Shown: positions 4,319-41,921 of the stretch, one piece after another | How positions within the stretch are numbered: position 1 is the stretch's first letter | How the letters are laid out: each line of letters opens with the position of its first letter | Assembly: GCA_946894095.1 (NCBI GenBank) | Contig: OX335643.1 | Span: 8,295,036 to 8,359,035 of the forward strand | Source: Incurvaria masculella | Taxonomy: Eukaryota > Arthropoda > Insecta > Lepidoptera > Incurvariidae | Reading direction: 5' to 3' | DNA: 64,000 nt | Position numbers and translations under genes: made by a program | Notes under the pieces: generated by a model | The model's input: only the letters and a program-made list of their open reading frames with translations | What the model was told of the DNA's origin: nothing | Databases searched by the model: none

Positions 4319-5215
4319 GTGGCGCCATCTAGTAGACTTTGAGCTGTAACCGAAAGTAGACCGTTTCTGGTGCACTCTACCAGACTATCCTAACTGTATC
4401 CTAAAAAGGACGGTTGTTGGCGCCATCTACCAGACTATCCTAAAGTAGACCATTGGTGGCGCCCTCTTCCTAAAGAGGACGGTTGTTGGCGCCATCTACA
4501 AGACTATCCTAAAGTAGACCATTGGTGGCGCCCTCTTCCTAAAGAGGACGGTTGTTGGCGCCATCTACAAGACTATCCTAAAGAAGACCATTGGTGGCGC
4601 CCTCTTCCTAAAGAGGACGGTTGTTGGCGCCATCTACAAGACTATCCTAAAGTAGACCATTGGTGGCGCCCTCTTCCTAAAGAGGACGGTTGTTGGCGCC
4701 ATCTACAAGACTATCCTAAAGAAGACCATTGGTGGCGCCCTCTTCCTAAAGAGGACGGTTGTTGGCGCCATCTACAAGACTATCCTAAAGAAGACCATTG
4801 GTGGCGCCCTCTTCCTAAAGAGGACGGTTGTTGGCGCCATCTACAAGACTATCCTAAAGAAGACCATTGGTGGCGCCCTCTTCCTAAAGAGGACGGTTGT
4901 TGGCGCCATCTACAAGACTATCCTAAAGTAGACCATTGGTGGCGCCCTCTTCCTAAAGAGGACGGTTGTTGGCGCCATCTACAAGACTATCCTAAAGTAG
5001 ACCATTGGTGGCGCCCTCTTCCTAAAGAGGACGGTTGTTGGCGCCATCTACAAGACTATCCTAAAGAAGACCATTGGTGGCGCCCCCTTCCTAAAGAGGA
5101 CGGTTGTTGGCGCCATCTACAAGACTATCCTAAAGTAGACCATTGGTGGCGCCCTCTTCCAGACTATCCTAAAAGTATCCTAAAGTATACTGTTGTTGGC
5201 ACACTCAACCAGACT
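4319..5215. repeat. 69-bp minisatellite downstream of PUS10
   Basis: About 11 regular copies (GGTTGTTGGC occurs at 4412, 4481, 4550 and so on to 5102, each 69 bases apart), with degenerate edges. Each unit is itself two related halves of about 39 and 30 bp: one has GGTTGTTGGCGCCATCTA, the other CCATTGGTGGCGCCCTCTT. A T/A variant (AAAGTAGACC versus AAAGAAGACC) is interspersed between copies. No coding potential. Confidence 0.95.
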
Positions 5216-6026
5216 ACCCTAATATTTTTTCGTATCTTCGATCGCCAGGCAGTCAAAAATACCAAATTTGACAGATTTCCTACACTATTTAATTCAACAA
5301 ACATTCGTCATTGCCCGTCCCTAATTTGTAAGCAAACAAAGTATAGTTGGCACATTGACAGCGTTTTCGATACCATCTGTCAAACGCATACAATATTTTT
5401 GACAGGCGATATCGCCTTCTCGATAGCGCCTACTTGATAGGGTTCGTAGTAGGGGCCCAGGCCTGCATAGTCAGCGAGCATGGAAGGACGCGAGGAGCGA
5501 TCGAATTTTTTTTCTATGGCGGCAGCGTAGCCAATAGCTAAAGGGAAATGTTCCAACTATACTTTCGGTTCGTAGTAGGGGCCCAATTAGCACATTTATC
5601 AGTGTTCAGTGACCAGCTTTGTCCACTGTGGAGTAGATTAAAATAAACTAACTAAGTAAACTACTGTGCAAATAAAACTCAGTTTTTACACAAAATATTG
5701 CATCTATTTCGCTACAATAATGTCGACACATATAGATATACATTGCTCTAATATAATCCTCGATTAATATAACATCACACAACATATAAATACATTCCTA
5801 CTTAGCAAGGTATCTTTTAATCAGTGAAGATTCTTTTTTCATACAAATATATTTAAATACCTACATCCATATAGATGGATACCTATCCAATAGCATAACT
5901 TTTACTTAAAACTAAAAATACAATTGTATGGCCATGCATTCTTTCTTTTTTAAACCCGTAAGGAAATACTTAATAATAGTTTACGGTTTTCGTGACCATC
6001 GGTGCGGGGCAATACTGAATTTTACA
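5211..6026. other. intergenic, repeat fragments
   Basis: No gene seen. The 19-bp motif GGTTCGTAGTAGGGGCCCA occurs twice in direct orientation, near 5444 and 5568. Near 5475 lies a piece beginning GCGAGCATGGAAGGACG that recurs as a motif near 7785, 32515, 32695 and 40290, so it is a dispersed repeat. From 5600 onward the sequence is AT-rich without recognisable structure. Confidence 0.5.
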
Positions 6027-12520: not shown

Positions 12521-12764
12521 ACCCATAAATGCAAAACGCACAAAGGCAAATTACCACGAATAGTGAGTTCTTCCAGTCAACCATTGTGGGACAATCGCAT
12601 GACCGAAATGCATTTTAAGATGTTATGAGATTTTAAGATTAATTAAACAAGAAATATTTATTTGAGGTCATTCAATGACATCTACATTGCAGCATTGAAT
12701 ATTCAAAAATCAGATTTTGAAAAAAAAAAATTTGAAAGATTTTCGTCGGAAGCAAGATTCCATC

Positions 12765-12835
12765 CCGCGACCTTTGGCTTACATGTCCGCTGCTCTACCG
12801 CTGAGCTATCCCGACAATTCCGACAGCCAACAAAG
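12765..12835 (-). repeat. tRNA-like sequence (tRNA-derived repeat or pseudo-tRNA)
   Basis: On the - strand the block GGGATAGCTCAGCGGTAGAG is a clear D-arm/box A-like motif. It is followed by GCGGACATGTAAGCC in the place of an anticodon arm and GGTCGCGGGATGGAATC in the place of the T arm. The anticodon stem and T arm do not pair properly and the 3' acceptor half is absent, so I read it as a tRNA-derived repeat rather than a working tRNA. The anticodon position, if real, would read TGT (Thr). Confidence 0.45.
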
Positions 12836-13646: not shown

Positions 13647-16600
13647 CTGCGGACAGACAGACGGACATTAAAACTCAAAACACGGAATAAAGACTATAAC
13701 CATAGTTCAAGGACACAATGATGACATTCATTCCCAGACAACATTTGTAAGAAATGACGAAGTGCACGCTTATTTCACTCGGAGCTCGCGAAACTTACAC
13801 GTGTAGACCAGACCATTGTTAAAGTGAAAGACCATTACATTTTTTTGTGGTTATCACAAGAAACTTTGTCGCACGTTTGCAACCAACTGAACTTTATTCT
13901 AACCTTACTACTAGATGGTGCTTTCAAATAAATGTAGGCGGAGTTGCACGACCAAAATGCAAGATATTTAAAGATAAATCAAACAAGATCATCCCAATCT
14001 TCTATAGAAATTTATTATTTATCTAGGTAAAATGTTTTGATGCTAGGAAACTTTAACAGTTTCGATTAACCTATCGCAAGCGCCATCTCTAGGCGACATA
14101 TTTACACCACTGAGAATCATTGTAAGGTAGTGTTTATGAAATGGAGTGGAAAGATGGCGCCGCCATCTCAAATATGCCATATGTGATGATGTGATTGTTA
14201 TTATAGTTTTGGTACAGATCCTACATATATGTGATCCATGACATATGAATGGACTCAAAGGCAAAATTGTATGGTTTTACTGTTCACTGGATTTAAATTT
14301 GAAGTTAAGCCATCAGAGTTGTTTCTCATCAGGTACTCGAGTAGAGACCATAGAGTGTTTACTCTATGGTAGAGACTGATGCTGTGTTACCTGTATGCTG
14401 CGACCGCGTCTTCTTTGTGGCAAGATGCCTTTTCGCGCCATGAAGAACCTGCAAGAACGAGCACAAGCATACAACAGCTATTACTTGATAATAACAACAG
14501 GTCCGATTTAAAGTTACGTTACCGAACCGTTCACAACTAGTCTGATGAGCATTGACAGCCCTTAAAATGGCATACCGTGAATGACATGACGTCATGGTTA
14601 CGTAACACAACATTGTACACAGTGGTAACGCTTAAAAGGTAGGGCACTGTTAGTGTCACATTTTGATGTTTCTATAGTATTGTCTGTCGACTGTGTTTTT
14701 TCACAAACCGTTAAATGTCTCTTAGGTGAAAATTCCAGTTTAGCTTATAATAATTTATTAAAATCAACTCTGAGAAAGACTGTTCTGACGAAAGTTCCAT
14801 GTTTGTTTGTTTGTTTCCGCAAATCAGAGCGTGGTGTAATTCATACATACTCGTATCCTTGGTTGATCCTTTTCAACAATCCATTAAAAATCCGTGTGAT
14901 TTGCCATTCGTTTATAATATTGACAAGAAATGTCAAATCATAGGAGTATTTTTCAACAAACTATAGAATACATTAAGAAGTGTGTTTCATCCATGGTGGT
15001 CAGATGGTCGAGATTGTTAGGGATTGTCACGATATTCCATAGGATGTCCAGAGTCCTAACAAGATACAAAATGTCACAGAAAACAATAAACAGAAAACAG
15101 TAATTTTATATCACTATGCGGTTTCAAAAATTCTTTAAGCTAACTCGCCTCTGCACAATTCTGCAATTACTGTGTAAACAAGTGCCGTGAGTAAGATGCA
15201 CACAATTTGGAACGCTCACCTCTGTGTAAACAGGGGCTGTGAGTTTGAAACAGACAATTCGGAACGCGGGGTAGGTGCAGTAGAAAAAAGAGCATACCTG
15301 ATGGTAGAGATGGGTATGTTGAACTGGTCGGAGACCGTCTGGAAGGTGTGCCCGCGGCTCACGCAGTCGGCGGCTTGCCGCAGGAGCTCCTCACTGCGCC
15401 GCACGCGCCGGTTGCCATCCGACGAGTCTTGCCGCGGCTGCAACATGATACAGGTTACAGGTTATTACATAATAGATATGTACCATCACGCCGCAGTGCC
15501 AAACTCTTTTGTAAACTTAGACTAAGTGGACGTTGAAACAATTTTAAGCCAAGTTTCTTGCCAGTTCTTCTTCATTATGACTATTGAACTAACTATTGTA
15601 CTCGTTACAATAGTTAGTTCCGTTAGTTGAATAAACAATAAACAACACAGTTCCACCACAGTATACTTTTTCGCTTCCTCTACAGACATACATTTTTTCA
15701 GCTCTGCGACTACAGGTGCTGCAGTGGTGGTGATGTTTCAATTCTTTACAGCTGAAATGCAGTGAATTCGAGATCTCTTTCTGTCATATAGACGTCAACC
15801 TTATTGTAAAAAGGACTAAGGTTAGGTTATATGGTAGGTTAGTACGAAAGAGTAAATTTTACCAAGGTCATACCAGTTGGGTTGCCGTGGAATTGTGTTG
15901 TGTGCTCCTATTAGAAACGCCAAATTAACAAACTCCCTAAAGAAGTGTCAAATCACATCGGAAACCACGCTCACCTGGTGGATGCTGATGACCCTAGCGT
16001 TCGACATTGTGACGCTGGGCGCGAGGCTCACGCCGGGCGGGAGGATGCTGGCGCGGTTGTTGCAGTTCGACACGAGCGCGCTGCTGGGCACGTGCTGTCA
16101 AACATTGTCACTGTTTTCACGTCACTTTTTATGGACACTATGGAAGGGAACTTGTAACGGAGCTCCCTGCTGGCCAGTATTCTGTGTCAGCCGGATGGGT
16201 AGCTCTGTTATTTCCAATATCCAAAATCACTTAAGACTAGTCCTAACCCTCAGTTCCTTGCAGTTCCAACCCTAAGGACTATATCAGTTCAAAGTCATGC
16301 CATTTGGTCTCCATTCAGCACCAGCAGGGAGCTCTGTTACAAACTGAGTGAACTCTTTGCGGTTCACTAAAAGTGACTCGTTTGAACAATGATTTCCTCA
16401 GCAGTCTCTGCCAGCAATCGAGCCTTAGTCAATCGATGTTCAAATACATCTCTTTTAGTGAACCGCATGTAGTCGACTCAGCTCCCTTCCAACTGTATAA
16501 AAAAAAGCCGCACACGAAGGGTTCCGTACCATCCTACGAGATTTAACACAAATAATCACATTTTGCCCCCCCTTTAATTTTTATAATTTTTTAATTTTAA

Positions 16601-19600: not shown

Positions 19601-22600
19601 GCCCGGGTTGGTACCACTGTATCGGATGAAACTATGGTTAGCGGCAATGAAAAATTGTCGGGAAATGGGAATATGGTGTATTGGGCTAATATCATAACGG
19701 TAGTTGTGATGGTGTTAGCCATCCATGTCAGATTTCATAAAAAAAAACTAGACAGCTAAGAGCAAAAATAATATATTGACTTTCTCGGAAAAACGTGAAG
19801 ATTATGCTGGCGAAAATGATTATAATAGTTTATTCTTAAAACCCATTTAGTGATGTTGGAAAATGATTATAATAGTTTATTCTTAAAACCCATTTAGTGA
19901 TGTTGGTTCGATTTGGACTTAGTTGCAACATCTTACGAACCGACTTGTAATTTGGATTTCACGTAAAACTTTAGATTACTTGCTCACTGGTTGCTCGGGT
20001 TCATCCCGGCCGGGTTGGTACCATTGCATTAATTGAAAGGATTATTTTAAAATCCAGTCCATTGCGTCGTGGAATATAAGCGATTAAAAATCAGTGATTG
20101 TTTTTTGTTACGACAAAAATCTTTAATAAAATTACTCAGCACAGGACAGAATAAATACTTGAACATTACAGTAACCGCTAGACCATATTGTAATTAAATA
20201 ATATGTAAGTACTTTACCTACAAGTTAAATTTATAGCCAATCATTTTTAATACTATCAGACAAATGCAATATGTATGTTTTTTATTTAGAATAATTTAAT
20301 TAATTTTTACTAAAACTACTTTTGAAATTACCTAAACATAAATTCAATAATTACCCAAGTAATTCAAATACTCGTAAGTGGTTGCATTTAAATGGCTTTG
20401 GTATGTCCGGTAAAAAATATTCTAAAATAGTATTTTGGTATTAGCTGCCTATTCTTAGGAACAGAAATGCTAAAAGTTCATCTATGCACGCATACATGAC
20501 TATCTTTAGACTAGAAATACACTATATCTTAAACACCATATTATTTCAAATACATAATATGACCGCTATGAAAAAAAATATATCTATTTAAAATTATTAC
20601 TTTGGCAGTTCTGAAAATATTATGAAATATTTGTAGCAGTACAAAAGTTTAATATATTCTATTGAGTTTGCGACAGTTTAATAATATTTTGTGTTTTGTA
20701 TGATAAATTTGTATCTACCCTTTCTTTAATTAAAAAATAATAGTCATAAATTAATAGGTACCTATACTAGTGTCTCCTTAAAAATTGGCACAAAAATATA
20801 TCTTATAGCATACATAGTACTAGTTATATATGTCTATTTATTATTACATTGTGTTATATTGAATTAAATATTAGAATAAAGGGCTGCGCATATCAAGAAT
20901 TCTTTTCGAATATAAAATTATAAACTAAATAAAAACACAACATATCCAAACGAAACACAACTCTATGCACAACCAAAACAGAAAAACTAAAAAAACCCTT
21001 ATCCAATAAGAGGAACAAATAAAAAATACTGAAGTATTACATTTTAAGTACCGTCACACATATCTCTTCATAACCTCAAAATGACAAATCTATATCGGGT
21101 CGGAGTACAACTCGGAGCCCCTCTGCGTCATCAGCCCCAGCGGGTCCAAGATCTGAGGGTTCCTGATACCCCGGCGTCCCTTGGAGAACTGACTCTTAAT
21201 ATCGTATTTCTCCATCCAGTTCCTCAGAGTTTTCCTCGGCACGCCGTACTTATTGGAAGCAGCATACACACTGAACCCCTTCTTCACGGCGATCAACGCC
21301 TCCCTCAAGTGCTGGGAAGAGTACTGCTTGTAGGACTTCTCCTGGAACACGTCCGTCTCGATGTTCACGATGGCGTTGGGTCGCCGGCCCATTATCCTAG
21401 GTCGCGCGTGAATGTTCATGGGTATCCCGTCGTCGTCGAAGTCCGGTATATCGATGAAGTGCCGACGGAATATCTCGGTGGAGGTCGTCCGCACCACGTC
21501 CTCGCTTTTAACGTTCCCCGGATAGAACACGGCGTCACCTGCAAGCCAGGAAGAGAGACAGCCCTTTAGTCTGTGGCGACACAACTTTTGACAGGTGTGA
21601 GAAGTGAGGTTATGTTGTCTATGGCCAACGGGCGTATCTTTTCCTGGCTTGCTCGGTCCCGGGCTGCAATAAAGTGTTACAATGCGGTGATTTTATTCGG
21701 AAGCCTTCATACTAAGCAAGGAAAAGAGACACATGTCTGAATACGAGGTGATTTTAAAGATACTTGCAGCAGCGAATCTATTAGTAGATAACATAAAATT
21801 AAGTAACATTAAACAGAAAAGTGATGACCAAATCTTTCCTGTTTCGGAGAAAAAAATTAAGATTCCACCAAAAATATATAAATTTGAGAAAGAGTCTGTA
21901 AAGTCCACCGTAAGAACATGTGACAGCTAAGGCTTGGTAAACAAACATCTCTGCGGTGCACAGAGGTTTGTTCTCAAACTGTTTATTAAATTTTATTATG
22001 AACTCTTATTCTTATTCTTATGAAAAAATAGTTTTGTATTTTTTTTTATTTGTTCACCCCCTAAAGCAGTGCATGTGATTATAAAATCATCCTAAACAGT
22101 TTTTTTGCCTGAGGAATCATAGATTTGGTTTTGGGGTTGTGGCACGTATTTTGTACAATTTGTGAGTTTGTACAAGTTTGTACAAGTGTGAACATTATAT
22201 TGACAGCAAAATGTATGGGTAAACTTTAAAAATGCTCTATGGCAGCACTATCTGTGCTAAGAAAACTCCCGCCACACATAGTTTTATATAGTGACGGAGC
22301 TCAAAAAGGCTGTGTTGAGATGGTTTGGTCGTATAGAGCCATCAAATAAGGAATTACGGGAGTGATTGCTCTCTAGAGACCTCATCATCTGAGCGTTAAT
22401 GACGCACTCATTTTGCAGAGAAAAGAGGTAATGGCTATGGGTGGGTAGTTGGACGGCCTGAACGATGGTCGATTTCTAAGCTGCAGGCACACTTCCAGTA
22501 GAATATGATAGGTGGTAAAGGCTAGGTAGGACAAGAACTAATTTTGGAGCATATTTCTTCAACACAGCTCAAGAATATAATCAGGGCCATTCGCATTTCT

Positions 22601-31600: not shown

Positions 31601-34600
31601 TTTCGCTTCTTCTACATACATACATCTCTTCATACATGCTATACGATTACGGGATTTTTTATGGAACCTGACATGGATAGCTAATATCACACAACTACCG
31701 TGATGATATTAGCACAATACACCAAATTCCCGAATGAATAAGGTGCCATGCCATGACCTTCCTTTCATGAGCACGGCTACATTGAACTGGATGGAAAAAA
31801 ACACATTTTCATTGCCGCTTCGACGTTGTTGTTACATGGGTTTCGAACCCTGGAACAAACAGCTCGCATCTGCAAAGAAATGCACTTATCCAACTCAGAA
31901 AGAGAAAGAAAGTGGTGCATGATCGAGTGAGGATTTTAATAGAAACCTCTCGCATGAAATTCAAGTCCTCTAGCCCCTACACCACGATGTATAAAATTAC
32001 GGGTGCCAAAATTACCTGAGCCTAAGAGTTATTAAGCGGCTCGGCAAATTGTGTTACAAATTAAAATAAAGGCCAGTGCTTAAGAATTTAATCAAATAGC
32101 AACCACCATAAAAACGATTAAAAATTCCTCTAATTATAATTTTTAAATATACTTGTAGACTTGGGTTTATATTATTTTCCCAATGCAAGGTTTATAGATT
32201 TTGGTTGTACTTAACTAGTCATCTGTTTGCCTTTACCGAACGCAGCGGGGGACGCATCATAAAGTCCAAAAAGCACAAAGTCCAAAACCTATACCGTCCA
32301 AAAACACTAATGATTACGGAACTTTTTCAATTAGGTTAGGTTAGGTTAGGTTAGATTATAATATTTGCATTTATAAATATATGCAAAAATACATACTTTT
32401 GGATGTTCTGGGTTTTGGACCTTATGCTTTTTGGACTTTATGAAGGCGACCCACGCAGCGTACACAACATTTTGGGCCTTTAACTGTGTTAGAAAGGATG
32501 GAGTAAACCAGTGAGCATGGAAGGACAGGAATAGCCACTTTTATATTTATTTTTTATTTGCAACCAGACATGGAACGCCACACAACTACCGTTATGATAT
32601 TAGCCAAACACACCACATTTCTGAAGGAATTAGGTGCCATGCCATGACTCCTGGCTATGCTGCCGACAAACGAATGCATTTCGATCGCTATATCCGTCCT
32701 TCCTTGCTCGCTGCGTAGCACAGTTGTAGTTCCATCTCTCTCTAATTCGCAATAGTGGTGCTTGAGTTGACTACTCTCTTCCACACTGTGTCACAAAAAA
32801 TTACTGTAAAATACAGATATTTACAAAACAAAATAAAAACATATGGGCATGGAATGAAGTTTTCTCAAGTGATTAAAAATGTTTGATTAAAATCTGACAA
32901 CTTAGGGGTAGGGCACCGTTAGGCCTGGCAGAAGAATTTCGCTAGTTTAATGGTAGTTGGCGTGCAAAATTGTGGCTGGCTAATGGCGAAAATGCACTTC
33001 TTAAAATTTTCAAATAATAATTTTCGATTTCTGCTGCCTTCACGACAGCCTTAAAGCAAGGATCGCGAAGCTATACAGGACAGAGCTCGCCTAACCTCAT
33101 TGAACTCGATGTCATCGTTGTCGAGCTCGCCGTAAAACAGGCCGTCCTCCTCGACGGTCTCCTCCTTGACGGTGGGCGCGGGCGCCGGCGCACCCTCCGC
33201 GCGCCGCTTCTTGCCGCACGGCCCGCCCGCGCGCTCCGGCTGCCGCGCCGCCCCGCCGCCGCCGCCGCCGCCGCCTGCCCACACGCGCACGATAGAAGAC
33301 ACAGAATTGAAACTACGCAGGGAATATTTTAAAAGATCAATTGCCAACAGGGAACTGTCAATTTGACGTGTTCCGCCGTTGACGAAGATTGTAGTTGTGG
33401 GAAGTCGGCCGCCGCTGGACACGGGAGCTTACCTGAAGATGAGCTAAATGTTTTGCACGAAACGTCGTGCTTCAAACAAATTATGCAGTGAGTAGAAAGC
33501 TGATAAACTTTTAAAATGAACAGTGACCACGGTAATCTAAAAACTTACATATGTAGGGAATAGCTATTTATTTTAAACAGGCAGCCTTGGTTGATACATC
33601 TGAGTCTACGGCCCGTTTACAGGAATAGACGGCTGAGTTAATCAATGTTCAAACACATTAGATTAGGTCTTTTAGAGAACCGCATGGTGTTGATTATGAT
33701 TATGTGTCCTTTCGTGCACTCGGCCGTAAATCTTATTAATTTCTCGCTAATAATATCTACCTCTTGCTACACTGCTGCACATTTCATATTGAACTTCTCA
33801 CAAATTGAGTTTTTGTTAAGTAACTGGACATGGACGGCTAATTTGATACAACTACCGTTATAATATCCTAGTACACCACATTCTCGAAATAATTATAAGC
33901 CGTTTCAGGACCTTCCCTTTATGAGCACGGCTACACTGAACTGGACGGAAGACACTGAAATTATTCATTGCCACTTCGACCATACTTCCATCCAATGCGG
34001 TGGTACCAACCCGGGCGGGGTTAACGCTACCACCTATTGGTGCACTTATCCAACTCAGAAAAAGAACGAAAGTGGTGCATGACCGGGGCGAAGATTTGAA
34101 CCCATAACCTCTCGCATGAAAGGCAAGTCCTCTAGTACCTACACTAGGAGCTGTACAGATTTCCAATAGGCCGTGTAAATCACAGCCTAGGGGCAGCATA
34201 TTTTCACTTTGCTTTCGTAAAGTGAACTGGCTTATACTTGTAATTAAAGGAAATTAAAAATCTTTATTTGCAAGTCAATATGGTTTACAAAAAGGCGAAA
34301 TTAATGCCATGAGGCCTTCTCTAACATTCAACCTTAGAGACGTACACTTTTATATACTCGAGACGTAGCTGGTTGCATGCGGACCACCCCATCAACAGCA
34401 CTAGAAGTCCTGCTGGGACTGCCCCCTCTTGATTTAATAATACAACGAGAGGCGGCAGCCGCAGCTTTTAGGCTTAGAACGACAGGTTTCTGGTCAGGAG
34501 AGACTAGGGCACAGGACACAACAATTCTCAGTATAGCTCTGGAGGAGAACCCTTTGCTAGGGGTAAGATGCGATAGGATACCTAAGACATATAACTTTGA

Positions 34601-37600
34601 CAGACTGTACACTATTGAACTCTCCGAGGGTCCAAAGGACTACTCGGGACTAAGAGAAGTTAGGGTATACACGGATGGCTCTAAAACCGAGTATGGTACG
34701 GGAGTTGGCTGTTTCTCAGCAGACCTCAATATCAAAAGAACAGTTATGCTGGGCTCCGGAAACTCTATCTTTCAGGCGGAGAGTGTAGGTCTAATTGAGG
34801 CAGCCGCAGCAATAAAACAGCGTGAAATGGTAGACTATACAATCAGAATACTAACCGACAGTGCATCTGTTTTGAAGGCTCTTGCCAATCAAACATTCAC
34901 TTCTGGACTAATTACACAATGTCATGAGGCTTTACAGGACATCTCAATCGACAACAGGATCACACTCCAGTGGATAAAAGGACATAGCGGAAGCCATGGC
35001 AACGATGCGGCCGACGATCTCGCCAAGGCGGGTTCGAGTTTAAAGCCCGTCGGACCAGAGCCACTCATGCCAACCCCGTTTAGTGAAGTCAAGACCTGGC
35101 TGAGGAAACGAATGACACGGGCTCACACTGCAAGGTGGTCATCTACAGCGGACTGTAGACAATCAAGGGAAGTAGTGCCAGCACCGGATCCACACCTAAC
35201 AAGGAAACTTCTACAGCTGCACAGACCACAGTTGAGAACGGTGGTAAGCCTACTCACGGGCCACTGCCAGCTCAACAAACACCTTCACACCATCGGAGTC
35301 ACGGACAGTCCGCCTCCAAGCAGGGCCTGCTTGGAGGCGGAGGAGACACCGGCACATATAGTCATGGAATGTAGACAACTGCAGACATTTTGTACGGGGG
35401 TCTTTAGCTTCGAAAGGAGCGACCCGACAGTGTGGAAAGACCCTAAAGGGCTGCTACGCTTTGTGGAAGAGCTCGGCTGGCTGAAGTGAGCCAAAAGTCG
35501 GGTTAATGACCACAACGGCCTCGTGTCAAGTGCGTTCAAGCGTCGGCAGCCACTCGCCGACAACAACAACAACTCGAGACGTAGGGGAGGTGCGTTGGGG
35601 TGGGCAAAAAAAAATAAAACAAGGAAGAGATTAGAGGATCATATTGACAAGCAAATAACTACTGATGAAATTATGCAAGTCAGGAAGAAGGGAACAGAAG
35701 AATATGAATAGAAAGGGATGTGCGTAAATCAAGTGGAACAGCTTCCACATTTGTGTAGCGTCAGCAGTAAAAGAATATGTGCATAAAGAAGAATTGTGTC
35801 CCGGAATAGCAAGAAGCACGGCTCAGCGCTGGTGTGGCATTAGCCATCCATAACCAGTGATATAAAAGGTGTGTGGAGAGTTCGCTCACCGTCAGCGCAA
35901 TCAAGCTGCGCGCGCAGTAGTGGTGTGGCATTAGCCATCCATAACCAGTGACATAAAGAGTATGTGGAGAGGTGGCTCACCGACAGCGCAGTCGAGCTGC
36001 GTGTGCAGTAGTAGTGTGGCATTAGCCATCCATAACCAGTGACATAAAGGGTGTGTGGAGAGGTGGCTCACCGTCAGCGCAGTCAAGCTGCGCGCGCAGT
36101 AGTGGTGTGGCATTAGCCATCCATAACCAGTGACATAAAGGGTGTGTGGAGAGGTGGCTCACCGTCAGCGCAGTCAAGCTGCGCGCGCAGTAGTGGTGTG
36201 GCATTAGCCATCCATAACCAGTGACATAAAGGGTGTGCGGAGAGGTGGCTCACCGTCAGCGCAGTCGAGCTGCGCGCGCAGTAGTGGTGTGGCATTAGCC
36301 ATCCATAACCAGTGACATAAAGGATGTGTGGAGAGGTGGCTCACCGTCAGCGCAGTCGAGCTGCGCGCGCAGTAGTGGTGTGGCATTAGCCATCCATAAC
36401 CAGTGACATAAAGAGTGTGTGGAGAGGTGGCTCACCGTCAGCGCAGTCGAGCTGCGCGCGCAGTAGTGGTGTGGCATTAGCCATCCATAACCAGTGACAT
36501 AAAGGGTGTGTGGAGAGGTGGCTCACCGTCAGCGCAGTCGAGCTGCGCGCGCAGTAGTGGTGTGGCATTAGCCATCCATAACCAGTGACATAAAGAGTGT
36601 GTGGAGAGGTGGCTCACCGTCAGCGCAGTCGAGCTGCGCGCGCAGTAGTGGTGTGGCATTAGCCATCCATAACCAGTGACATAAAGGGTGTGTGGAGAGG
36701 TGGCTCACCGTCAGCGCAGTCGAGCTGCGCGCGCAGTAGTGGTGTGGCATTAGCCATCCATAACCAGTGACATAAAGGGTGTGTGGAGAGGTGGCTCACC
36801 GTCAGCGCAGTCGAGCTGCGCGCGCAGTAGTGGTGTGGCATTAGCCATCCATAACCAGTGACATAAAGAGTGTGTGGAGAGGTGGCTCACCGTCAGCGCA
36901 GTCGAGCTGCGCGCGCAGTAGTGGTGTGGCATTAGCCATCCATAACCAGTGACATAAAGAGTGTGTGGAGAGGTGGCTCACCGTCAGCGCAGTCGAGCTG
37001 CGCGCGCAGTAGTGGTGTGGCATTAGCCATCCATAACCAGTGACATAAAGAGTGTGTGGAGAGGTGGCTCACCGTCAGCGCAGTCGAGCTGCGCGCGCAG
37101 TAGTGGTGTGGCATTAGCCATCCATAACCAGTGACATAAAGGGTGTGTGGAGAGGTGGCTCACCGTCAGCGCAGTCGAGCTGCGCGCGCAGTAGTGGTGT
37201 GGCATTAGCCATCCATAACCAGTGACATAAAGAGTGTGTGGAGAGGTGGCTCACCGTCAGCGCAGTCGAGCTGCGCGCGCAGTAGTGGTGTGGCATTAGC
37301 CATCCATAACCAGTGACATAAAGAGTGTGTGGAGAGGTGGCTCACCGTCAGCGCAGTCGAGCTGCGCGCGCAGTAGTGGTGTGGCATTAGCCATCCATAA
37401 CCAGTGACATAAAGGGTGTGTGGAGAGGTGGCTCACCGTCAGCGCAGTCGAGCTGCGCGCGCAGTAGTGGTGTGGCATTAGCCATCCATAACCAGTGACA
37501 TAAAGAGTGTGTGGAGAGGTGGCTCACCGTCAGCGCAGTCGAGCTGCGCGCGCAGTAGTGGTGTGGCATTAGCCATCCATAACCAGTGACATAAAGAGTG

Positions 37601-40600
37601 TGTGGAGAGGTGGCTCACCGTCAGCGCAGTCGAGCTGCGCGCGCAGTAGTGGTGTGGCATTAGCCATCCATAACCAGTAACATAAAGGGTGTGTGGAGAG
37701 GTGGCTCACCGTCAGCGCAGTCCAGCTGCGCGCGCAGTAGTGGTGTGGCATTAGCCATCCATAACCAGTGACATAAAGGATGTGTGGAGAGATGGCTCAC
37801 CGTCAGCGCAGTCGAGCTGCGCGCGCAGTAGTGGTGTGGTATTAGCCATCCATAACCAGTGACATAAAGAGTGTGTGGAGAGGTGGCTCACCGTCAGCGC
37901 AGTCGAGCTGCGCGCGCAGTAGTGGTGTGGCATTAGCCATCCATAACCAGTGACATAAAGAGTGTGTGGAGAGGTGGCTCACCGTCAGCGCAGTCGAGCT
38001 GCGCGCGCAGTAGTGGTGTGGCATTAGCCATCCATAACCAGTGACATAAAGAGTGTGTGGAGAGGTGGCTCACCGTCAGCGCAGTCGAGCTGCGCGCGCA
38101 GTAGTGGTGTGGCATTAGCCATCCATAACCAGTGACATAAAGGGTGTGTGGAGAGGTGGCTCACCGTCAGCGCAGTCGAGCTGCGCGCGCAGTCGAGCTG
38201 CGCGCGCAGTAGTGGTGTGGCATTAGCCATCCATAACCAGTGACATAAAGAGTGTGTGGAGAGGTGGCTCACCGTCAGCGCAGTCGAGCTGCGCGCGCAG
38301 TAGTGGTGTGGCATTAGCCATCCATAACCAGTGACATAAAGAGTGTGTGGAGAGGTGGCTCACCGTCAGCGCAGTCGAGCTGCGCGCGCAATAGTGGTGT
38401 GGCATTAGCCATCCATAACCAGTGACATAAAGGGTGTGTGGAGAGGTGGCTCACCGTCAGCGCAGTCGAGCTGCGCGCGCAGTAGTGGTGTGGCATTAGC
38501 CATCCATAACCAGTGACATAAAGGGTGTGTGGAGAGGTGGCTCACCGTCAGCGCAGTCGAGCTGCGCGCGCAGTAGTGGTGTGGCATTAGCCATCCATAA
38601 CCAGTGACATAAAGGGTGTGTGGAGAGGTGGCTCACCGTCAGCGCAGTCGAGCTGCGCGCGCAGCAGCGCCTCCGACGCTAGCGTGAAGTCGCGCCCGTC
38701 GCTCGTCTGCGTGCCCTTCGCCGCCGGCGCAGCCTCCGCGCCGCCCGCCTCGCTCGAGCACAGACCTGCATAATGTTACACCATTCATTTTTGTTTAGTT
38801 TTTCTTTTTTCATATTTGTGTTAACCAGTTAAAAATGCCTTCCTTGCTCACTAGATGGCAGGATTTCACGGCCGATTATACAAACATATAAAATTCCTTA
38901 GAAAAAGCGACGTACTTGCTTATAGTTCTAACACCATTTTTAATAATGCTAATGTCTAAAGAATTTTGAAGTCCCTTTTTTTTTGAGAAGAATCATACTT
39001 TATAGACATCGTAATAATTGTATTACAGATCCATCTATTGTATTGTATAATATTCATCCTTTTGGGACACATATATGGAACACTCGGAATCGACAAAATA
39101 TGTTCCATGGCAACAGGCTAAAATTATAGTTAAAAACTCACTATTACTACACACTGCTATATTTTAACACTTAAGGCTGTTCCGACCCATATAAAGTTGT
39201 TTGCACACATAACGCAAAAAGTATTGCACTTTAAGCCACGAATTAATAATAAAAGTTTAATATAGTCATATTACTTGCAGCGAAAACAATTTCACAATTT
39301 CAGGATTATTGGTTTTGTTACAATTTATTTAAATACGATTTGTATTTAACAGCGCCATCTAACGGTGTAAAACTTCTAATCAGCAATTACAACGAAACCA
39401 TTAAACCTGAAATTGTGAATATGTTTTCGCTGCAACTGCTATGATTATATTTAATATTCTTGACGAATTCATGCCTTAAAGTGCAATAATTTTTGGGTTC
39501 TGTGTAAAAAAAACATTGTATGGGTCGGAACATGCTTAATATTATTAAATTATGCCATATTATACATTATGCTAGGAATGCACAAGGAAAATTTTTTCAA
39601 TGAAGAAAAAAAAAGATTGATGCTGAAATATTTTTTTATCTGTTTGATTTTAAATTACTACTATGGAAGTTGGTTTTTTTTTACTGCTATGGCACTGACA
39701 TTTGTTGGTTCATGTAGTAGGTGGTAACCTCATTGGTTTTTCTCCCATAGTTATCCCCAGACTGTCATTCTGTTAACTAACATGCCAATTCTTGTTTTCA
39801 GTTTAGTACAGTCAGCACAGTCAGCTAGGGCAGAGCCAACTAGAGCAGGGCCAATGGGAAACATAAAAACCGTTTCGTCAAGAGATGGCGCCACTTGTTT
39901 GACTTCATTGCGGTGGCAGGAATGTGTATGGTTGAAGATAAATACATAATGCGATGCATAAAAAGGTTGCATGTATGAAGTCATGAAAAATGACTGTAGA
40001 AGCGAAAGAAGTATTTTTTAGCAATTGCCTCTTGAGCTAATGCTCAAAGCGATTCATATCAATCCAAATATGGCCATATAGTAATGTTCTCTCATGGCAT
40101 GGACCGGCGAGTGAGGTCGCTCGCTCCTGACGTTCTCCAGATCCAACGACATATAAAAACACGCAAATCTTCACACAACACTATCGCAACGGTCATTAAG
40201 TGTTGTAACCACAATTAGCAGTTTTTGATGAACTTGTTGAGCTTGCTACGCCGCTCCCATACGAGCGGGTTTCGGTAGCGACTTCTTTCCTTCCGTGCTC
40301 GCTGGTGAAAGGGCTCCCTGGCATTCGTGACATGCTCAGAACTCTTTGACAACTCACCCCTGATCTGCAGCGCCTCCGCCGACTTGAGGAGGCTGGGCAG
40401 GTCGTCCTGGGTCACGTTCACCTCGCCCTTGTACATGAAGTCCACCAGCGACTGCATCTCGCTGAACCTGACGGCGTCCAGTGAGAGGGAGAAAACATTA
40501 GGGGAGTCCGTGACAAATGGTCCTGATGGAATGAAATAACCATTCTGTATGGTCAAGCCGAGTTCTCACCTAAATTGGTGTTTATGGAACTTAGAAGTTA

Positions 40601-41921
40601 CGTACAAACTTCATACCCATACAAACTTTTACGTGGTTTACTTCTTCAAGCTGTTAAATAAAAAATGTCAGTTTGCTTAATGCCCATTGTGCGTGCTTTT
40701 AAATTTCTCCATACATTTGAAAACTCTAGTCGATCAGTTTGGTGTAAACACCAATTTTAGTGATGAGTCGGACTAGAGGCTCTAACACACATGCTCTTGA
40801 TACAATGGCGACTTCAGAGAGACAGGTTTAAGACTCAATTCGGTTTGTGTGGACTGCAGCGGTTAGATGGGGGACATATTTGCAAAAATATTGATATTTG
40901 TCATGAAAGGTTGCATATTTGCTTCTTTTTGCATATTTGGTTCCTTCTATACTGGTTTGATAGAATCCGCGGATCTTTAGTAGTTTGACTACCAAAAAGT
41001 TAAAATAAATGAAATGAAAATTAAATATGGCATGAAATGTTGATTTTCGTGAACTCTTATACCGCTTAACTCATGCGCATATTTCTTGTCGGAGATCCAA
41101 AAGTATACTCAAAACAGCTTCATTCATTCATTCAAGAACACCGAAGAAACAACAATATGAATGATCTTATGCTGAGATTCAAAGACATTTCTTCTGTCTT
41201 GAGACAATGCTCGAGATTCAAAGACATTTCTTCTGTCTTGAGATAATGCTCAAGTCTTCAGACTGCCAAATTTGACATTACTGCCATACATTTTATGTCA
41301 ATATTTACAGTCTGAAGTACGCCTTGTGGACACGTAAGTATCAGAAAGATACGCTTCTAATTTAATTGATATTTGGGATTTAATATCAGGCAACAATTAT
41401 CTATGTCTGCACGTATTTGTCCTTTCGAAATATATGTATCCTGTGTCACAGAACAGAAAAATAAATATAAAGATCTTCTTTTACCTGTTATTTGACTTGC
41501 TTTAGATTTTTCAGCAAAACAAAAACGTGCAGACACAGATATTTATTGTCAAAGATACCAAATACCAAGCAAATTGAAACAGTCTTTTTCTGATAAGTAA
41601 ACTACGTTTGAATGGGGAACATAGCTTGTATGTATATTTGAATGAGTGAGAAAGGTTTTAAAATTGTATTAATGCAACAAACACAAACCTCATGTCTTTC
41701 ATGAAGATGATCGGGTGCTTGCACGGATTCTGAACGAGCAGACGCTCAAAGTAAGCGGAGCATGCACTCAGCACCACCTTGTGGCAGCGCAGCTGCCGGT
41801 TCTCACAGGCGAGGGTGACATCCGCGAAATTTTCTGTCGACAGCAGCTTGGGGAACACCGTCTGCAGGTTGCTGTGGTAGGAGTTCCACCGGACGCAGAA
41901 CTGCTGCGGCGCCAGCGCCAT
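13536..41921 (-). CDS. BTB/POZ-Psq transcription factor gene with three alternative 3' ends (gene-level entry)
   Basis: The common part is five exons encoding 232 codons plus one base: a BTB/POZ domain (about residues 8-115, with [34 protein letters not shown] and [13 protein letters not shown]), then Ala/Gly-rich and acidic linkers with a KKRR basic patch. The last common exon ends in phase 1. Three downstream cassettes each begin with two bases that complete this codon and each encodes a Psq helix-turn-helix: A 587 aa, B 381 aa, C 438 aa in total. BTB domains dimerise and Psq domains bind DNA, so the isoforms are probably nuclear regulators sharing partners but differing in target sites, as in lola, mod(mdg4) and pipsqueak-class genes. 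I cannot assign an orthologue name. Exon boundaries come from splice-site sequence and phase only. Confidence 0.85.
13655..14390 (-). other. intron between the last two cassette C exons
   Basis: AT-rich intron. A small hairpin (ACCATAGAGT, GTTT, ACTCTATGGT) lies at 14348-14371, about 20 bases from the donor of the 58-nt exon. No transposon was recognised. Confidence 0.6.
14391..14448 (-). CDS. BTB-Psq gene, cassette C 58-nt exon completing the Psq domain
   Basis: Acceptor TCGTTCTTGCAG and donor CAG|GTAACAC. The first base completes the Arg codon begun in the previous exon, and 19 codons follow: [19 protein letters not shown], ending in phase 0. The sequence supplies the end of the Psq recognition helix ([11 protein letters not shown]) and an RRRGR basic run reminiscent of an AT-hook. 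It is too short to appear in any ORF list. It is the only sequence between 15298 and 13646 that converts the phase-2 end of the preceding exon to the phase-0 start of the last exon while continuing the domain. Confidence 0.82.
15298..15437 (-). CDS. BTB-Psq gene, cassette C Psq helix-turn-helix exon
   Basis: Acceptor CATGTTGCAG, 46 codons in phase 0, and donor ATCAG|GTATGC leaving phase 2. It encodes [17 protein letters not shown], then [17 protein letters not shown], the first two helices and the start of the recognition helix of a Psq-type domain (about residues 346-393 of isoform C). The domain is split at the same place and phase as in cassette A, just after the Arg that starts the recognition-helix end. 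A 51-bp imperfect tandem duplication (GTGTAAACA...GGAACGC) lies immediately downstream in the intron (15172-15270). Confidence 0.85.
15586..15620. repeat. perfect 15-bp hairpin
   Basis: GAACTAACTATTGTA, five bases CTCGT, then TACAATAGTTAGTTC. It lies in the intron between cassette C exons at 15437 and 15975. Confidence 0.8.
15975..16094 (-). CDS. BTB-Psq gene, cassette C second exon
   Basis: Acceptor TGTTTGACAG, donor CAG|GTGAGC, exactly 40 codons in phase 0. The product, [17 protein letters not shown] then [17 protein letters not shown] and VISIHQ, is a Ser/Asn/Val-rich linker with no recognised domain. The GC content stands out from the AT-rich flanks, and both phases match the neighbouring exons. 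Confidence 0.78.
16155..16490. repeat. dispersed repeat with copies at 57545, 58620 and 60490
   Basis: About 16160-16230 is the reverse complement of 58620-58715 (GCTCCCTGCTGGCCAGTATT, CCGGATGGGTAGCTCTGTTA). About 16350-16480 contains GCGGTTCACTAAAAGTGAC and, reversed, CTTTTAGTGAACCGCATG, an internal inverted repeat related to 60530-60600 and 57585-57655. Confidence 0.6.
16500..16765 (-). repeat. dispersed lepidopteran-type repeat, reversed copy
   Basis: It runs from AAGCCGCACACGAAGGGTTC through GACAGACGGACGGCCAGCGG to GGGTTCCGTTTTCACCCTTT and GGAACCCTAAAAA, matching 62690-62985 in reverse. A fragment of the GGGCGTGA-ended MITE (16766-16799) abuts it. Confidence 0.7.
16991..17181 (-). CDS. 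BTB-Psq gene, cassette C first exon
   Basis: Acceptor TGTCCCGCAG; the first two bases complete an Asp codon with the phase-1 end of common exon 5. Then 63 codons lead to donor ACG|GTGAGG in phase 0. The product starts [19 protein letters not shown], continues with an Ala/Gly/Val-rich low-complexity stretch and ends in [13 protein letters not shown]. Several overlapping frames are open because of the GC-rich repeats. This one alone has splice phases that fit both sides. Confidence 0.8.
19450..19748 (+). repeat. SINE-like family copy
   Basis: It starts GTAGGGGCTAGAGGACTTGC, passes GAGTTGGATAAGAGCATTTC and GCCCGGGTTGGTACCACTG, and ends GTGTTAGCCATCCATGTCAG with an A run. It lacks the GGTCCTGGCATGGCACC segment. 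Confidence 0.65.
19812..19906. repeat. two-copy perfect tandem duplication, 47 bp
   Basis: GAAAATGATTATAATAGTTT and the following 27 bases, ending AGTGATGTTG, occur twice head to tail without a visible mismatch. Confidence 0.85.
20837..20842 (-). terminator. candidate polyadenylation signal of isoform B
   Basis: TTTATT on the + strand (AATAAA on the - strand) lies about 250 bases after the cassette B stop. Such a signal is expected for an isoform that ends before cassette C, but AT-rich sequence makes chance occurrence likely. Confidence 0.4.
21090..21538 (-). CDS. BTB-Psq gene, cassette B (single terminal exon)
   Basis: Acceptor CTGGCTTGCAG; two bases complete a Gly codon from common exon 5. 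Then 148 codons and TAG at 21092-21090 make a 381-aa isoform. The Psq domain lies at about residues 305-346: [20 protein letters not shown] then [19 protein letters not shown]. Before it is an acidic/aromatic region with [12 protein letters not shown] and a GRRPN basic spot; after it comes [16 protein letters not shown]. Unlike cassettes A and C, the Psq coding sequence has no intron. Confidence 0.9.
22290..22400 (+). pseudogene. LINE C-terminal fragment
   Basis: The + strand frame reads [20 protein letters not shown], resembling the (L)RWFGH(V/I)ER motif near the C-terminus of many insect LINE reverse transcriptases. It is very short and degraded. Confidence 0.4.
22490..22860 (-). pseudogene. 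LINE reverse transcriptase N-terminal fragment
   Basis: The - strand frame ending at 22624 contains [20 protein letters not shown] and MQFRQGTV, the segment just before the reverse transcriptase domain in jockey/R1-type elements. Stops and frame changes follow directly. It is related to the element at 48020-49050 (AKEKADLLVDLFAAKFRRDD there). Confidence 0.65.
24118..24390. repeat. dispersed repeat tail
   Basis: It starts AACTAGCTAACGTCTCCGGC and ends near AAACACATAAATATTATAAA then AGCTAGGATA. This block style (a CTAGCT start with an AT-rich 3' end) is common for LINE or Helitron remnants in Lepidoptera. I cannot place it in a family with confidence. Confidence 0.4.
24597..25005. mobile_element. 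GGGCGTGA-ended MITE, full-length copy
   Basis: The left end TTAAGGGTGTGATAAGAGCC with GATTGCATTCAGTT and the right end GAATGCAATCAGGTG with TCACGCCCTCAA are inverted repeats of about 35 bp with some divergence. The interior of about 340 bases is AT-rich and non-coding. Related fragments lie at 10735-10925 and 16766-16799. Confidence 0.75.
25751..25836. repeat. hairpin element, 39-bp arms
   Basis: ATGCTGCGATTCATAGACC and TTACTCGTGCTTGGCTTAGC, about 7 loop bases, then GCTAAGCTAAGCACGAGTAA and GGCCTATGAATCTCAGCAT. Only about three mismatches occur across 39 bp, a pre-miRNA-sized fold. A related TGCTGAGATTCA block occurs near 41170. Confidence 0.8.
27255..27663 (-). CDS. BTB-Psq gene, cassette A terminal exon
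   Basis: Acceptor AATCCTTCCAG; one base completes the Arg codon begun at 28475, and the exon runs to TAG at 27257-27255. It starts [20 protein letters not shown], the recognition-helix half of the Psq domain ([10 protein letters not shown] is the family core). It continues into a Gln/Lys-rich stretch and an acidic C-terminal tail ([17 protein letters not shown]). It provides residues 452-587 of isoform A. The antisense open frames over this exon have no family resemblance. Confidence 0.92.
27664..28474 (-). other. intron inside the cassette A Psq domain
   Basis: Phase-2 intron (donor AG|GTGAGA, acceptor TTCCAG|G). It holds a GAAA/AAGA-rich microsatellite near 27705-27725 and a dispersed-repeat fragment with CCGTCCTTCCGTGCTCGCTG near 28375. 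No gene seen. Confidence 0.65.
28475..29132 (-). CDS. BTB-Psq gene, cassette A first exon (linker, AT-hook, Psq start)
   Basis: Acceptor GATTGTTTTTCAG; two bases complete an Ala codon with common exon 5, then 218 codons and two bases remain (phase 2). The N-terminal 140 residues are charged and helical-looking ([20 protein letters not shown], then [14 protein letters not shown]), with no family I recognise. At about residues 375-381 of the isoform is ARRGRPP, an AT-hook core. After it [20 protein letters not shown] begins the Psq domain, which finishes in the exon at 27663. The combination of minor-groove (AT-hook) and Psq motifs supports a DNA-binding nuclear protein. Confidence 0.92.
29133..31070 (-). 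other. intron before cassette A
   Basis: Contains the MITE at 29699-29860. Around 30140-30350 the sequence is less AT-rich (GCGTCTCACGCGCACGCGC) and could be regulatory, but no coding exon with the right phase was found. Otherwise AT-rich. Confidence 0.5.
29699..29860. mobile_element. MITE with about 30-bp inverted ends
   Basis: The left end ACCGGCCAGTCAGTTCGC with TTACGAATTCGC is mirrored by the right end GTGAATTCGTAAGCGAAC with TCACTGGCCGGC. The interior of about 100 bases carries CTCGAGTTCCAATGGCGCG. Other copies lie at 8310-8455, about 7858-8010 and, partial, near 40096-40180. Confidence 0.75.
31071..31116 (-). CDS. BTB-Psq gene, common exon 5 (alternative splicing hub)
   Basis: A 46-nt exon: acceptor CCGTTTCAG, then [15 protein letters not shown] and one base (phase 1), donor G|GTGAGTATT, a strong consensus. 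It is the last exon shared by all three isoforms; its phase-1 end fits the two-base starts at 29132, 21538 and 17181. Short and acidic, it extends the acidic end of exon 4. The only open frame containing it runs on both sides into intron and is not itself a gene. Confidence 0.85.
31658..31980 (-). repeat. SINE-like family copy
   Basis: From GGAACCTGACATGGATAGCT (reversed 3' end) through AGGTGCCATGCCATGACCTT and AACTGGATGGAAAAAAACAC to GCACTTATCCAACTCAGAAA and TCAAGTCCTCTAGCCCCTAC (reversed 5' end). Almost full length in the - orientation, the same strand as the host gene. Confidence 0.7.
32248..32452. mobile_element. MITE with 8-bp target duplication and a TTAGG core
   Basis: The direct repeat ACGCAGCG flanks the element (32240-32247 and 32453-32460). 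The ends are inverted repeats of about 40 bp: TCATAAAGTCCAAAAAGCAC near 32257 versus GCTTTTTGGACTTTATGA near 32426-32443. The centre holds four TTAGG repeats and a partial one (32331-32354), the insect telomere motif. There is no coding capacity. An 8-bp duplication is usual for hAT-type elements. Confidence 0.75.
32560..32720 (-). repeat. SINE-like family fragment joined to another dispersed repeat
   Basis: CAGACATGGAACGCCACACA and ATTAGGTGCCATGCCATGAC are the reversed 3' part of the family. At 32690-32715 follows TCCGTCCTTCCTTGCTCGCT, a separate dispersed motif. Confidence 0.55.
33096..33274 (-). CDS. BTB-Psq gene, common exon 4 (Gly-rich and acidic linker)
   Basis: Acceptor CGTGTGGGCAG; two bases complete the Gly codon from exon 3, and 59 codons follow to donor GAG|GTTAGG (phase 0). 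It encodes a run of Gly from GGC repeats, then [19 protein letters not shown] with a KKRR basic patch that could serve nuclear import. It ends in an acidic segment, [18 protein letters not shown] and IEFNE. The GGC run is a place where length differences between alleles are likely. The antisense frame over this exon is a shadow. Confidence 0.87.
33822..34150 (-). repeat. SINE-like family, best full-length copy, with tRNA-like head
   Basis: Read on the - strand it starts GTAGGTACTAGAGGACTTGC. It then carries GAGAGGTTATGGGTTCAAAT, where GGGTTCAAATC resembles an RNA polymerase III box B, then GAGTTGGATAAGTGCACC, a middle with CCCGGGTTGGTACCACCGC, and a 3' end TAGCCGTCCATGTCCAGTTA. Length is about 330 bp. 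The box B-like motif and A-rich 3' ends of sister copies suggest a tRNA-derived SINE; box A is not convincing. Confidence 0.6.
34356..35584 (+). mobile_element. 5'-truncated non-LTR retrotransposon with 13-bp target duplication
   Basis: ACTCGAGACGTAG stands at 34356-34368 and again at 35572-35584, an exact target-site duplication. Between them lies a 5'-truncated LINE ending in an ACA/CAA repeat tail (CCGACAACAACAACA). The insertion is antisense to the BTB-Psq gene, within intron 3. The perfect duplication and open frame point to a recent event. Confidence 0.9.
34377..35489 (+). CDS. LINE ORF2 C-terminal part with RNase H domain
   Basis: 370 codons without a stop, belonging to the truncated LINE. 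It begins in the segment after the reverse transcriptase ([20 protein letters not shown]). It then has an RNase H domain with the acidic residues in YTDGSK (Asp100), FQAES (Glu135), LTDSAS (Asp161) and HGND (Asp210), and a His in IKGHSG. Towards the end [13 protein letters not shown] is followed by a [15 protein letters not shown] cysteine/histidine block. RNase H at the C-terminus places it among the I/R1/LOA-type LINEs rather than RTE. The start used is simply the first ATG after truncation; no native product is implied. Confidence 0.88.
   Translation: MRTTPSTALEVLLGLPPLDLIIQREAAAAAFRLRTTGFWSGETRAQDTTILSIALEENPLLGVRCDRIPKTYNFDRLYTIELSEGPKDYSGLREVRVYTDGSKTEYGTGVGCFSADLNIKRTVMLGSGNSIFQAESVGLIEAAAAIKQREMVDYTIRILTDSASVLKALANQTFTSGLITQCHEALQDISIDNRITLQWIKGHSGSHGNDAADDLAKAGSSLKPVGPEPLMPTPFSEVKTWLRKRMTRAHTARWSSTADCRQSREVVPAPDPHLTRKLLQLHRPQLRTVVSLLTGHCQLNKHLHTIGVTDSPPPSRACLEAEETPAHIVMECRQLQTFCTGVFSFERSDPTVWKDPKGLLRFVEELGWLK
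35830..38664. repeat. 91-bp minisatellite derived from exon 3 and its splice donor
   Basis: The site GGCATTAGCCATCC occurs 31 times from 35837 to 38584, at 91-base steps except one of 108. Each unit (+ strand) reads GTGGCATTAGCCATCCATAA, then CCAGTGACATAAAG, then GTGTGTGGAGAGGTGGCTCA, then CCGTCAGCGCAGTCGAGCTG and CGCGCGCAG. The last 28 bases are identical to the end of exon 3 at 38637-38664, and the preceding CTCAC is the exon's donor GTGAG reversed. The TTAGCCATCCATAA...ACATAAA part resembles the 3' end of the SINE-like family (TTAGCCATCCATGT...CATAAA). The 60-codon frames repeating through it are artefacts. The leftmost units are the most diverged. Confidence 0.97.
38637..38765 (-). CDS. 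BTB-Psq gene, common exon 3
   Basis: Acceptor CATTATGCAG (AG at 38767-38766); two bases complete the Gly codon from exon 2. Then come 42 codons and one base, with donor ACG|GTGAGC. The product starts [18 protein letters not shown], continues [18 protein letters not shown] and ends QLDCADG. It is Ala/Ser-rich linker with no recognised domain. The final 28 bases and the donor are reiterated about 30 times downstream in the adjacent minisatellite. If a downstream donor were used, the frame would continue [15 protein letters not shown] to a stop. Confidence 0.85.
38766..40357 (-). other. intron between common exons 2 and 3
   Basis: Donor AGG|GTGAGT, acceptor TGCAG at 38766. It contains the fold-back element at 39171-39539 and a fragment of the 29699-type MITE at about 40096-40180. 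No exon recognised otherwise. Confidence 0.65.
39171..39539. mobile_element. TTAA-flanked fold-back MITE, arms about 170 bp
   Basis: The left arm starts TTAAGGCTGTTCCGACCCAT and the right arm ends ATGGGTCGGAACATGCTTAA. Further pairs are GCACTTTAAG with CTTAAAGTGC and GCAGCGAAAACA with TGTTTTCGCTGC. The arms are continuous almost to the centre (GCGCCATCTAACGG near 39353). Non-coding, 369 bp, in an intron of the BTB-Psq gene. Confidence 0.8.
40358..40467 (-). CDS. BTB-Psq gene, common exon 2 (second half of the BTB domain)
   Basis: Acceptor GACGCCGTCAG; one base completes the Arg codon of exon 1, then 36 codons and one base remain, with donor G|GTGAGTTG. It encodes [18 protein letters not shown] then [18 protein letters not shown], the second half of a BTB/POZ domain of the insect Broad/Tramtrack/Bric-a-brac type (YKGEVNV and SAEALQIRG are hallmark blocks). 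The longer open frame around it includes intron sequence on both sides; the boundaries here follow splice sites and the known BTB alignment. Confidence 0.95.
40468..41688 (-). other. intron between the two BTB exons
   Basis: An intron at this position in BTB domains is common in insects. Contents: a fragment of the TTAA-type MITE near 41085 (TTCTTGTCGGAGATCC), a two-copy 39-bp tandem repeat at 41174-41251 (GAGATTCAAAGACATTTCTT), and an inverted repeat pairing ACAATTATCTATGTCTGCAC near 41391 with GTGCAGACACAGATATTTAT near 41528. Confidence 0.6.
41689..41921 (-). CDS. BTB-Psq gene, exon 1 with start codon (first half of the BTB domain)
   Basis: ATG at 41921-41919 in the context GTCAAGATGGC, then 77 codons and two bases, with donor AG|GTTTGTG. 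It encodes [18 protein letters not shown], then [33 protein letters not shown] and [10 protein letters not shown], the first half of a BTB/POZ domain. In this family the domain starts within about ten residues of the initiator Met, which supports this start. Upstream 5' UTR exon(s) are expected but were not located with certainty. Confidence 0.95.

Follow-up and report, generated by a model that had tools for sequence, protein, structure and literature searches.

The 64,000-nucleotide (nt) stretch of Incurvaria masculella DNA analysed here (contig OX335643.1, positions 8,295,036 to 8,359,035; hereafter the window) carries on its minus strand a putative BTB/psq gene, whose best named relatives are lepidopteran 'bric-a-brac 2' and 'bric-a-brac 2-like' proteins. 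Directly behind common exon 3 of this gene lies a minisatellite whose units repeat the end of the exon, its 5' splice site and a piece resembling a short interspersed element (SINE). The array is real, was correctly described by the first-pass annotation, a model's reading of the letters, and is of a kind already named. Taken as a whole, the data are probably best explained by a minisatellite of the type called 'mirage' in amphioxus, where tandem repeats of exon-intron boundaries are reported (PMC3087553), most likely a young and nearly neutral one in which the first donor would mostly be used. The annotation knew of no such array made from a live splice site for this gene class; this impression of novelty does not hold, since the amphioxus mirages (PMC3087553, PMC3902484) and the donor minisatellite of human IFI6 had been described.

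The annotation's estimate of about 31 head-to-tail units of 91 bp agrees with Tandem Repeats Finder (TRF), which gives a period of 91, 31.0 copies and 95% matches at 35830-38664, and with the 31 minus-strand GTGAGC sites, which run from 38636 to 35889. Spacing is 91 bp in 29 of the 30 intervals and 108 bp in the remaining one, and within this longer unit TRF detects a 17-bp tandem row at 38170-38210. The array and its parts are as follows (a slash marks the exon-intron border).

35830..38664, minus strand: array of 31 head-to-tail units (91 bp, one of 108 bp), from TRF, GTGAGC spacing and unit identity
38637..38765, minus strand: common exon 3, 129 nt, predicted; its last 28 nt lie within the repeat unit
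38631..38639, minus strand: first (genuine) 5' splice site, ACG/GTGAGC, with the G of GT at 38636
35884..38548, minus strand: 30 decoy 5' splice sites, with the G of GT from 38545 to 35889
38170..38210, minus strand: nested 17-bp tandem duplication of the 108-bp unit
35830..35867, plus strand: SINE-like 3' end with short A-tail of the outermost unit, repeated in the other 30 units and antisense to the gene

Pairwise identity among the 30 complete units, with the 108-bp unit trimmed to 91, averages 98.2% and falls to 91.2% in the lowest pair. Unit position 22 carries a C/T change with an irregular pattern along the array. Neighbouring units are barely closer than distant ones (0.9833 versus 0.9821), and thus no higher-order pattern was seen in the array.

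Read on the minus strand, each unit comprises the final 28 nt of exon 3, followed by the donor ACG/GTGAGC and ~16 more intron bases; then come ~38 bp that match, in reverse complement, a SINE-like 3' end and its short A-tail. ACG precedes GTGAGC at 30 of the 31 sites. The annotation had also placed an acceptor-like site 16 nt upstream of the donor; this site, CGCGCGCAG, is preserved unchanged in all but one of 30 units (29/30). A SINE-like profile built from nine local 3' ends, with the array left out, finds the piece in 31/31 units (30 of them with E between 2e-6 and 3e-5, the outermost with 0.0039), so that profile and unit comparison together bear out the composition first proposed. Among the matches listed for a unit in the species' own assembly (552 Mb in 31 contigs) are 30 in the array and 10 elsewhere, 40 in all and each a lower bound; at the 10 other places 35-45 bp of the SINE-like part is covered with 87-94% identity. 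These copies share an end in GGTGTGGCATTAGCCATCCAT plus an A-run, and the far edge of the array therefore coincides with the truncation of the element. These comparisons show the SINE-like segment in the units to be real. Flanking GGTGTG on both sides of the piece had been considered as a target-site duplication (a 6-nt word arises by chance in a 12-nt flank in 0.25% of draws, with edges here picked by eye). The candidate was withdrawn, because GGTGTGG stands at the same spot in 8 of the 10 genomic copies and hence belongs to the element. All 29 matches listed for exon 3 DNA fall in this locus alone, and no second array of the 91-bp unit occurs among the matches listed in the assembly searches. 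A 29-nt word of the unit was absent from viral_contigs, a collection that may lack the organism.

Differences between units are distributed unevenly. With position 22 left out and the outermost unit scored over 60 nt, 15 of 21 differences from the consensus are concentrated in the six units at the greatest distance from the exon (permutation p 0.0003), as expected if homogenisation spares an edge, and the differences correlate with position in the array (rank correlation 0.40, p 0.025). The outermost unit also keeps a longer A-run. This pattern fits an array that grew or was homogenised close to the exon and kept its older units at the far edge; the edge unit may also have diverged without being older. 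Of 17 changes, 1 falls in the donor nonamer, which makes up 9 of 90 positions (P 0.48 for at most 1). Donor changes are thus not depleted, and there is no sign of selection keeping the decoys.

The events that we infer would have run in the following order. A 5'-truncated SINE-like element would have landed antisense just 3' of the exon 3 donor, the segment from within exon 3 to the edge of the element would have been duplicated in tandem, and unequal exchange or slippage would then have expanded the duplication to 31 units. Most pre-mRNAs would use the first donor, because the exon that it closes is of normal size (129 nt) and has a true acceptor on its upstream side; removal of intron 3 (~5.4 kb) would take the array with it. 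Where a decoy donor or an acceptor-like site was used, an in-frame stop would follow and the transcript would be lost as noise. We favour this reading because exon end, donor and SINE-like piece recur in every unit while the SINE family is present at 10 other places, because exon 3 DNA matches only this locus, and because in amphioxus normal splicing is reported to go on undisturbed by mirages (PMC3087553, PMC3902484).

The consequences of decoy use can be read from the frames. Retention up to any decoy donor reads EPPLHTPFMSLVMDG and then a stop (30/30), which bears out the annotated reading of EPPLHTP... to a stop; for each of the 30 decoys the retained sequence gives ...CADGEPPLHTPFMSLVMDG and the stop. 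Micro-exons of 16 nt made through the CGCGCGCAG site, modelled in 1-6 copies, give ARLR and then a stop, and none of the routes modelled through the array gives a productive mRNA.

Arrays of this sort are not limited to the window. We surveyed the window together with 25 loci selected by their BTB exons (287,888 bases in all, with overlap between several loci and 8 matched places left out), and found 7 distinct arrays with a period of at least 40 and at least 3 copies, of which 3 repeat exon ends and 4 do not. At C5:4109173-4110196 (L024 1674-2697), in another BTB gene, a 189 bp x 5.4 array repeats an exon end with its donor, each unit holding ~140 nt of exon and ~47 nt of intron. Its five donors, four ...TTACAG/GTACGG and one ...GTACAG/GTACGG, are spaced by 189, 187, 189 and 189, and its first two units keep the frame open, so that a transcript spliced at the second donor would be longer by 63 in-frame codons. 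At C4:16323224-16324512 (L023 2225-3513), again in another BTB gene, a 244 bp x 5.3 array repeats a whole BTB exon with an AAG/GT donor, and the five donors lie 244 bp apart. The exon-end arrays in BTB genes are a recurrence and not a proven excess: enrichment of exon-spanning arrays in these genes is not shown in a survey whose loci were picked for BTB exons with no random control. Near yet another BTB gene, a 122-bp x 19 tandem array at L034 7645-10000 runs to the end of the examined locus.

Several results weigh against the scheme of a nearly neutral mirage with a preferred first donor. The first-pass annotation had proposed unequal exchange after a SINE insertion close to the exon. Its insertion beside the exon stands, as the probable first event. 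For the first duplication, the 6-bp microhomology CAGCGC at both array edges is equalled by 36% of shuffles and was rejected, which leaves the starting duplication without convincing microhomology. Predicted U1 pairing is -8.3 kcal/mol for the first donor and the decoys alike (exon 1 -8.0, exon 2 -10.4, exon 4 -6.2), a value reached by 1.0% of 3535 background GT sites, whereas a plain count of consensus matches puts 9.5% of them level with the array donor. RNA structure was tried as the selector of the first donor and is not decisive, the unpaired value being 0.37 for it versus 0.36, 0.21 and 0.05 for the next decoys, the last of these near the end of the folded piece. The acceptor-like site has a pyrimidine share of 0.62, equal to that of the exon 2 acceptor and above those of exons 3 and 4 (0.44 and 0.50). 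By pairing, by folding of the first decoy and by pyrimidine content, the sequence itself gives the first donor no advantage. Human minigenes with equal donors are reported to favour the donor nearest the upstream acceptor under exon definition and the downstream one under intron definition (PMC9225289); the latter would count against the first donor, and so does human IFI6, two downstream units of which are reported to serve as donors, yielding three mRNAs (PMC4526556). As intron 3 is ~5.4 kb long, exon definition would be expected at exon 3. Expansion driven by hairpins was considered as well, and the folding of single-stranded DNA (z -2.2 for the unit, -0.8 for the exon part, -1.2 for the exon-donor part) was too weak.

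It might be argued that the unit number was inflated or collapsed during assembly. Long arrays of near-identical units are prone to such errors, and one mirage is reported to have been wrongly assembled in the draft amphioxus genome (PMC3087553). However, the 31-contig assembly and the variants private to single units, among them one unit of 108 bp, make a fault of assembly the less likely source of the array, and shorter arrays of the same type stand in two other genes; we think an artefact very unlikely. A working brake, in which decoys and 16-nt micro-exons would send a set share of transcripts to stops and the number of units would tune output, is also unlikely in our view. Such a brake would profit from the early stop met at 30/30 decoys and on every modelled micro-exon route, from the equal predicted U1 pairing of decoys and genuine donor, and from the IFI6 units that do act as donors (PMC4526556). 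But a random stretch of intron gives a stop by default too, the donor is not spared from change, and mirages elsewhere are reported to be silent (PMC3087553, PMC3902484). Moreover, a protein search with one array frame gave no candidate in a collection that may lack the organism; no relative with the array thus came from it, and there is no sign of long conservation.

The units could also be introns in the making. Each is a near-complete intron, with GTGAGC, 75 nt from the donor to the next CGCGCGCAG and CTAAT 25 nt before the AG, followed by a 16-nt exon, and stepwise removal or new splicing might make use of it; intron gain from duplicated boundaries is reported in potato, Drosophila and human repeats and has been proposed for amphioxus. 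The acceptor-like site, however, does not stand out (of 1580 background YAG sites, 27% equal or exceed it in pyrimidine share), and a 16-nt micro-exon, if retained, breaks the frame. We think this the most unlikely of the proposals. A wider version of the brake, that the genome readily makes mirages (three BTB genes) and that the 31-unit array is a copy-number-dependent poison-splicing device, seems to us improbable. If it were true, decoys and micro-exons would set the productive mRNA share for a transcription factor. We return to the probable young mirage, whose first donor would mostly be used; its near neutrality and donor choice are what we infer from the absence of depletion at the donors and from the position of the first one.

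The assignment of the host gene is predicted from its exons, which are listed here with the two C-terminal regions.

41689..41921, minus strand: exon 1, counted from its ATG, with the first part of BTB, predicted
40358..40467, minus strand: exon 2, second part of BTB, predicted
33096..33274, minus strand: exon 4, conserved VKEETVEEDG stretch, predicted
21093..21521, minus strand: alternative C-terminal region, psq domain
15264..15428, minus strand: second psq-like C-terminal region, matching Danaus isoform P0013 and beetle P0017; open reading frame (ORF) without Pfam match

The BTB domain is carried by the ORFs of exons 1 and 2. Exons 1-4 are predicted to join without a frame break into 217 amino acids (aa), and the phase of exon 3 links exons 2 and 4 in this open frame, which supports the earlier claim that the array is continuous with a coding exon. 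An N-terminal BTB, a VKEETVEEDG exon and an alternative psq C-terminus, the features of lepidopteran bric-a-brac 2-like proteins, were all found. The protein search scored 7997 candidates, 829 of them at E <= 0.001, with the best 120 of 829 listed. We aligned 19 of the listed relatives with the window protein. In rows P0001-P0016 (16/16) the reading continues unbroken from the part aligned with exon 3 to the VEEDG part of exon 4. The counterpart in the beetle rows P0017 and P0036 is more distant, and P0018 (145 aa) is too short to reach it. In a tree of 19 of the 20 rows (without P0018, each row trimmed to 230 residues, with a long-branch warning that includes P0014), the window adjoins, from outside, 15 rows (13 named lepidopterans and 2 unnamed), with support of 95/89 for the group of 16 and 100/99 for the 15 alone. 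P0014 is from the caddisfly Arctopsyche. The placement would suit a lepidopteran that branched early or is divergent. The common-exon protein has 49 matches in the assembly, and only the four window pieces exceed 56% identity.

Other features of the window may be mentioned. In intron 3, just beyond the array, a plus-strand ORF at 34338-35489 has an RNase H domain (PF00075, E 1.5e-12) and is probably a retrotransposon remnant. A 69-bp x 11 minisatellite (4399-5160, 98% matches) lies in plus-strand ORF 4394-5437 (347 aa stop to stop), and a tRNA-like match at 12744-12815 on the minus strand (RF00005, 34.4 bits) was not reported by ARAGORN.

What makes the array interesting is its size, the SINE-like part, the stops by which errors mark themselves and the two companion arrays. 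It is a natural contest of 31 near-identical 5' splice sites, the first at a normal exon and the other 30 beyond it, in which a stop labels each mistake, and RNA reads alone could test exon-centred against intron-centred rules of splice choice. The origin of mirages is called unclear by the amphioxus authors (PMC3087553); our data suggest a birth route by SINE-like insertion beside an exon followed by tandem duplication, and the two companions in the same assembly hint that the class extends beyond cephalochordates. No insect mirage was found in the literature searched, a single library, and this implies nothing beyond it.

Amphioxus mirages are reported in Adh3 and the globins BflGb6 and BflGb9 (PMC3087553), as well as in PGBD5 and troponin C (PMC3902484). 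Like them, the window unit crosses from an exon of a coding gene into the intron, and the units are near-identical, homogenised inside and divergent at the edge. Unlike them, it is found in an insect, has 31 units of 91 bp versus the 6 and 3 reported for two BflGb6 haplotypes, carries a SINE-like 3' end in each unit, and is known from one genome assembly alone. The splice-donor minisatellite of human IFI6 (G1P3, 6-16) was reportedly described by Turri et al. in 1995. It too is an exon-end minisatellite whose units, of 12 bp, offer multiple donors, and each window unit has a plausible 5' splice site; unlike in IFI6, the window decoys give no in-frame variants, as 30/30 stop before the join. Duplicated stretches with splice signals are reported to become candidate introns in potato, Drosophila and human repeats, and here such a stretch was likewise duplicated, with splicing of the window units as introns of their own only a proposal. 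Finally, squamate SINE-derived satellites (PMC10702118) are, like the present array, reported as tandem repeats built from part of a SINE, whereas here only ~38 of 91 bp are SINE-like and the array occupies a single intragenic locus.

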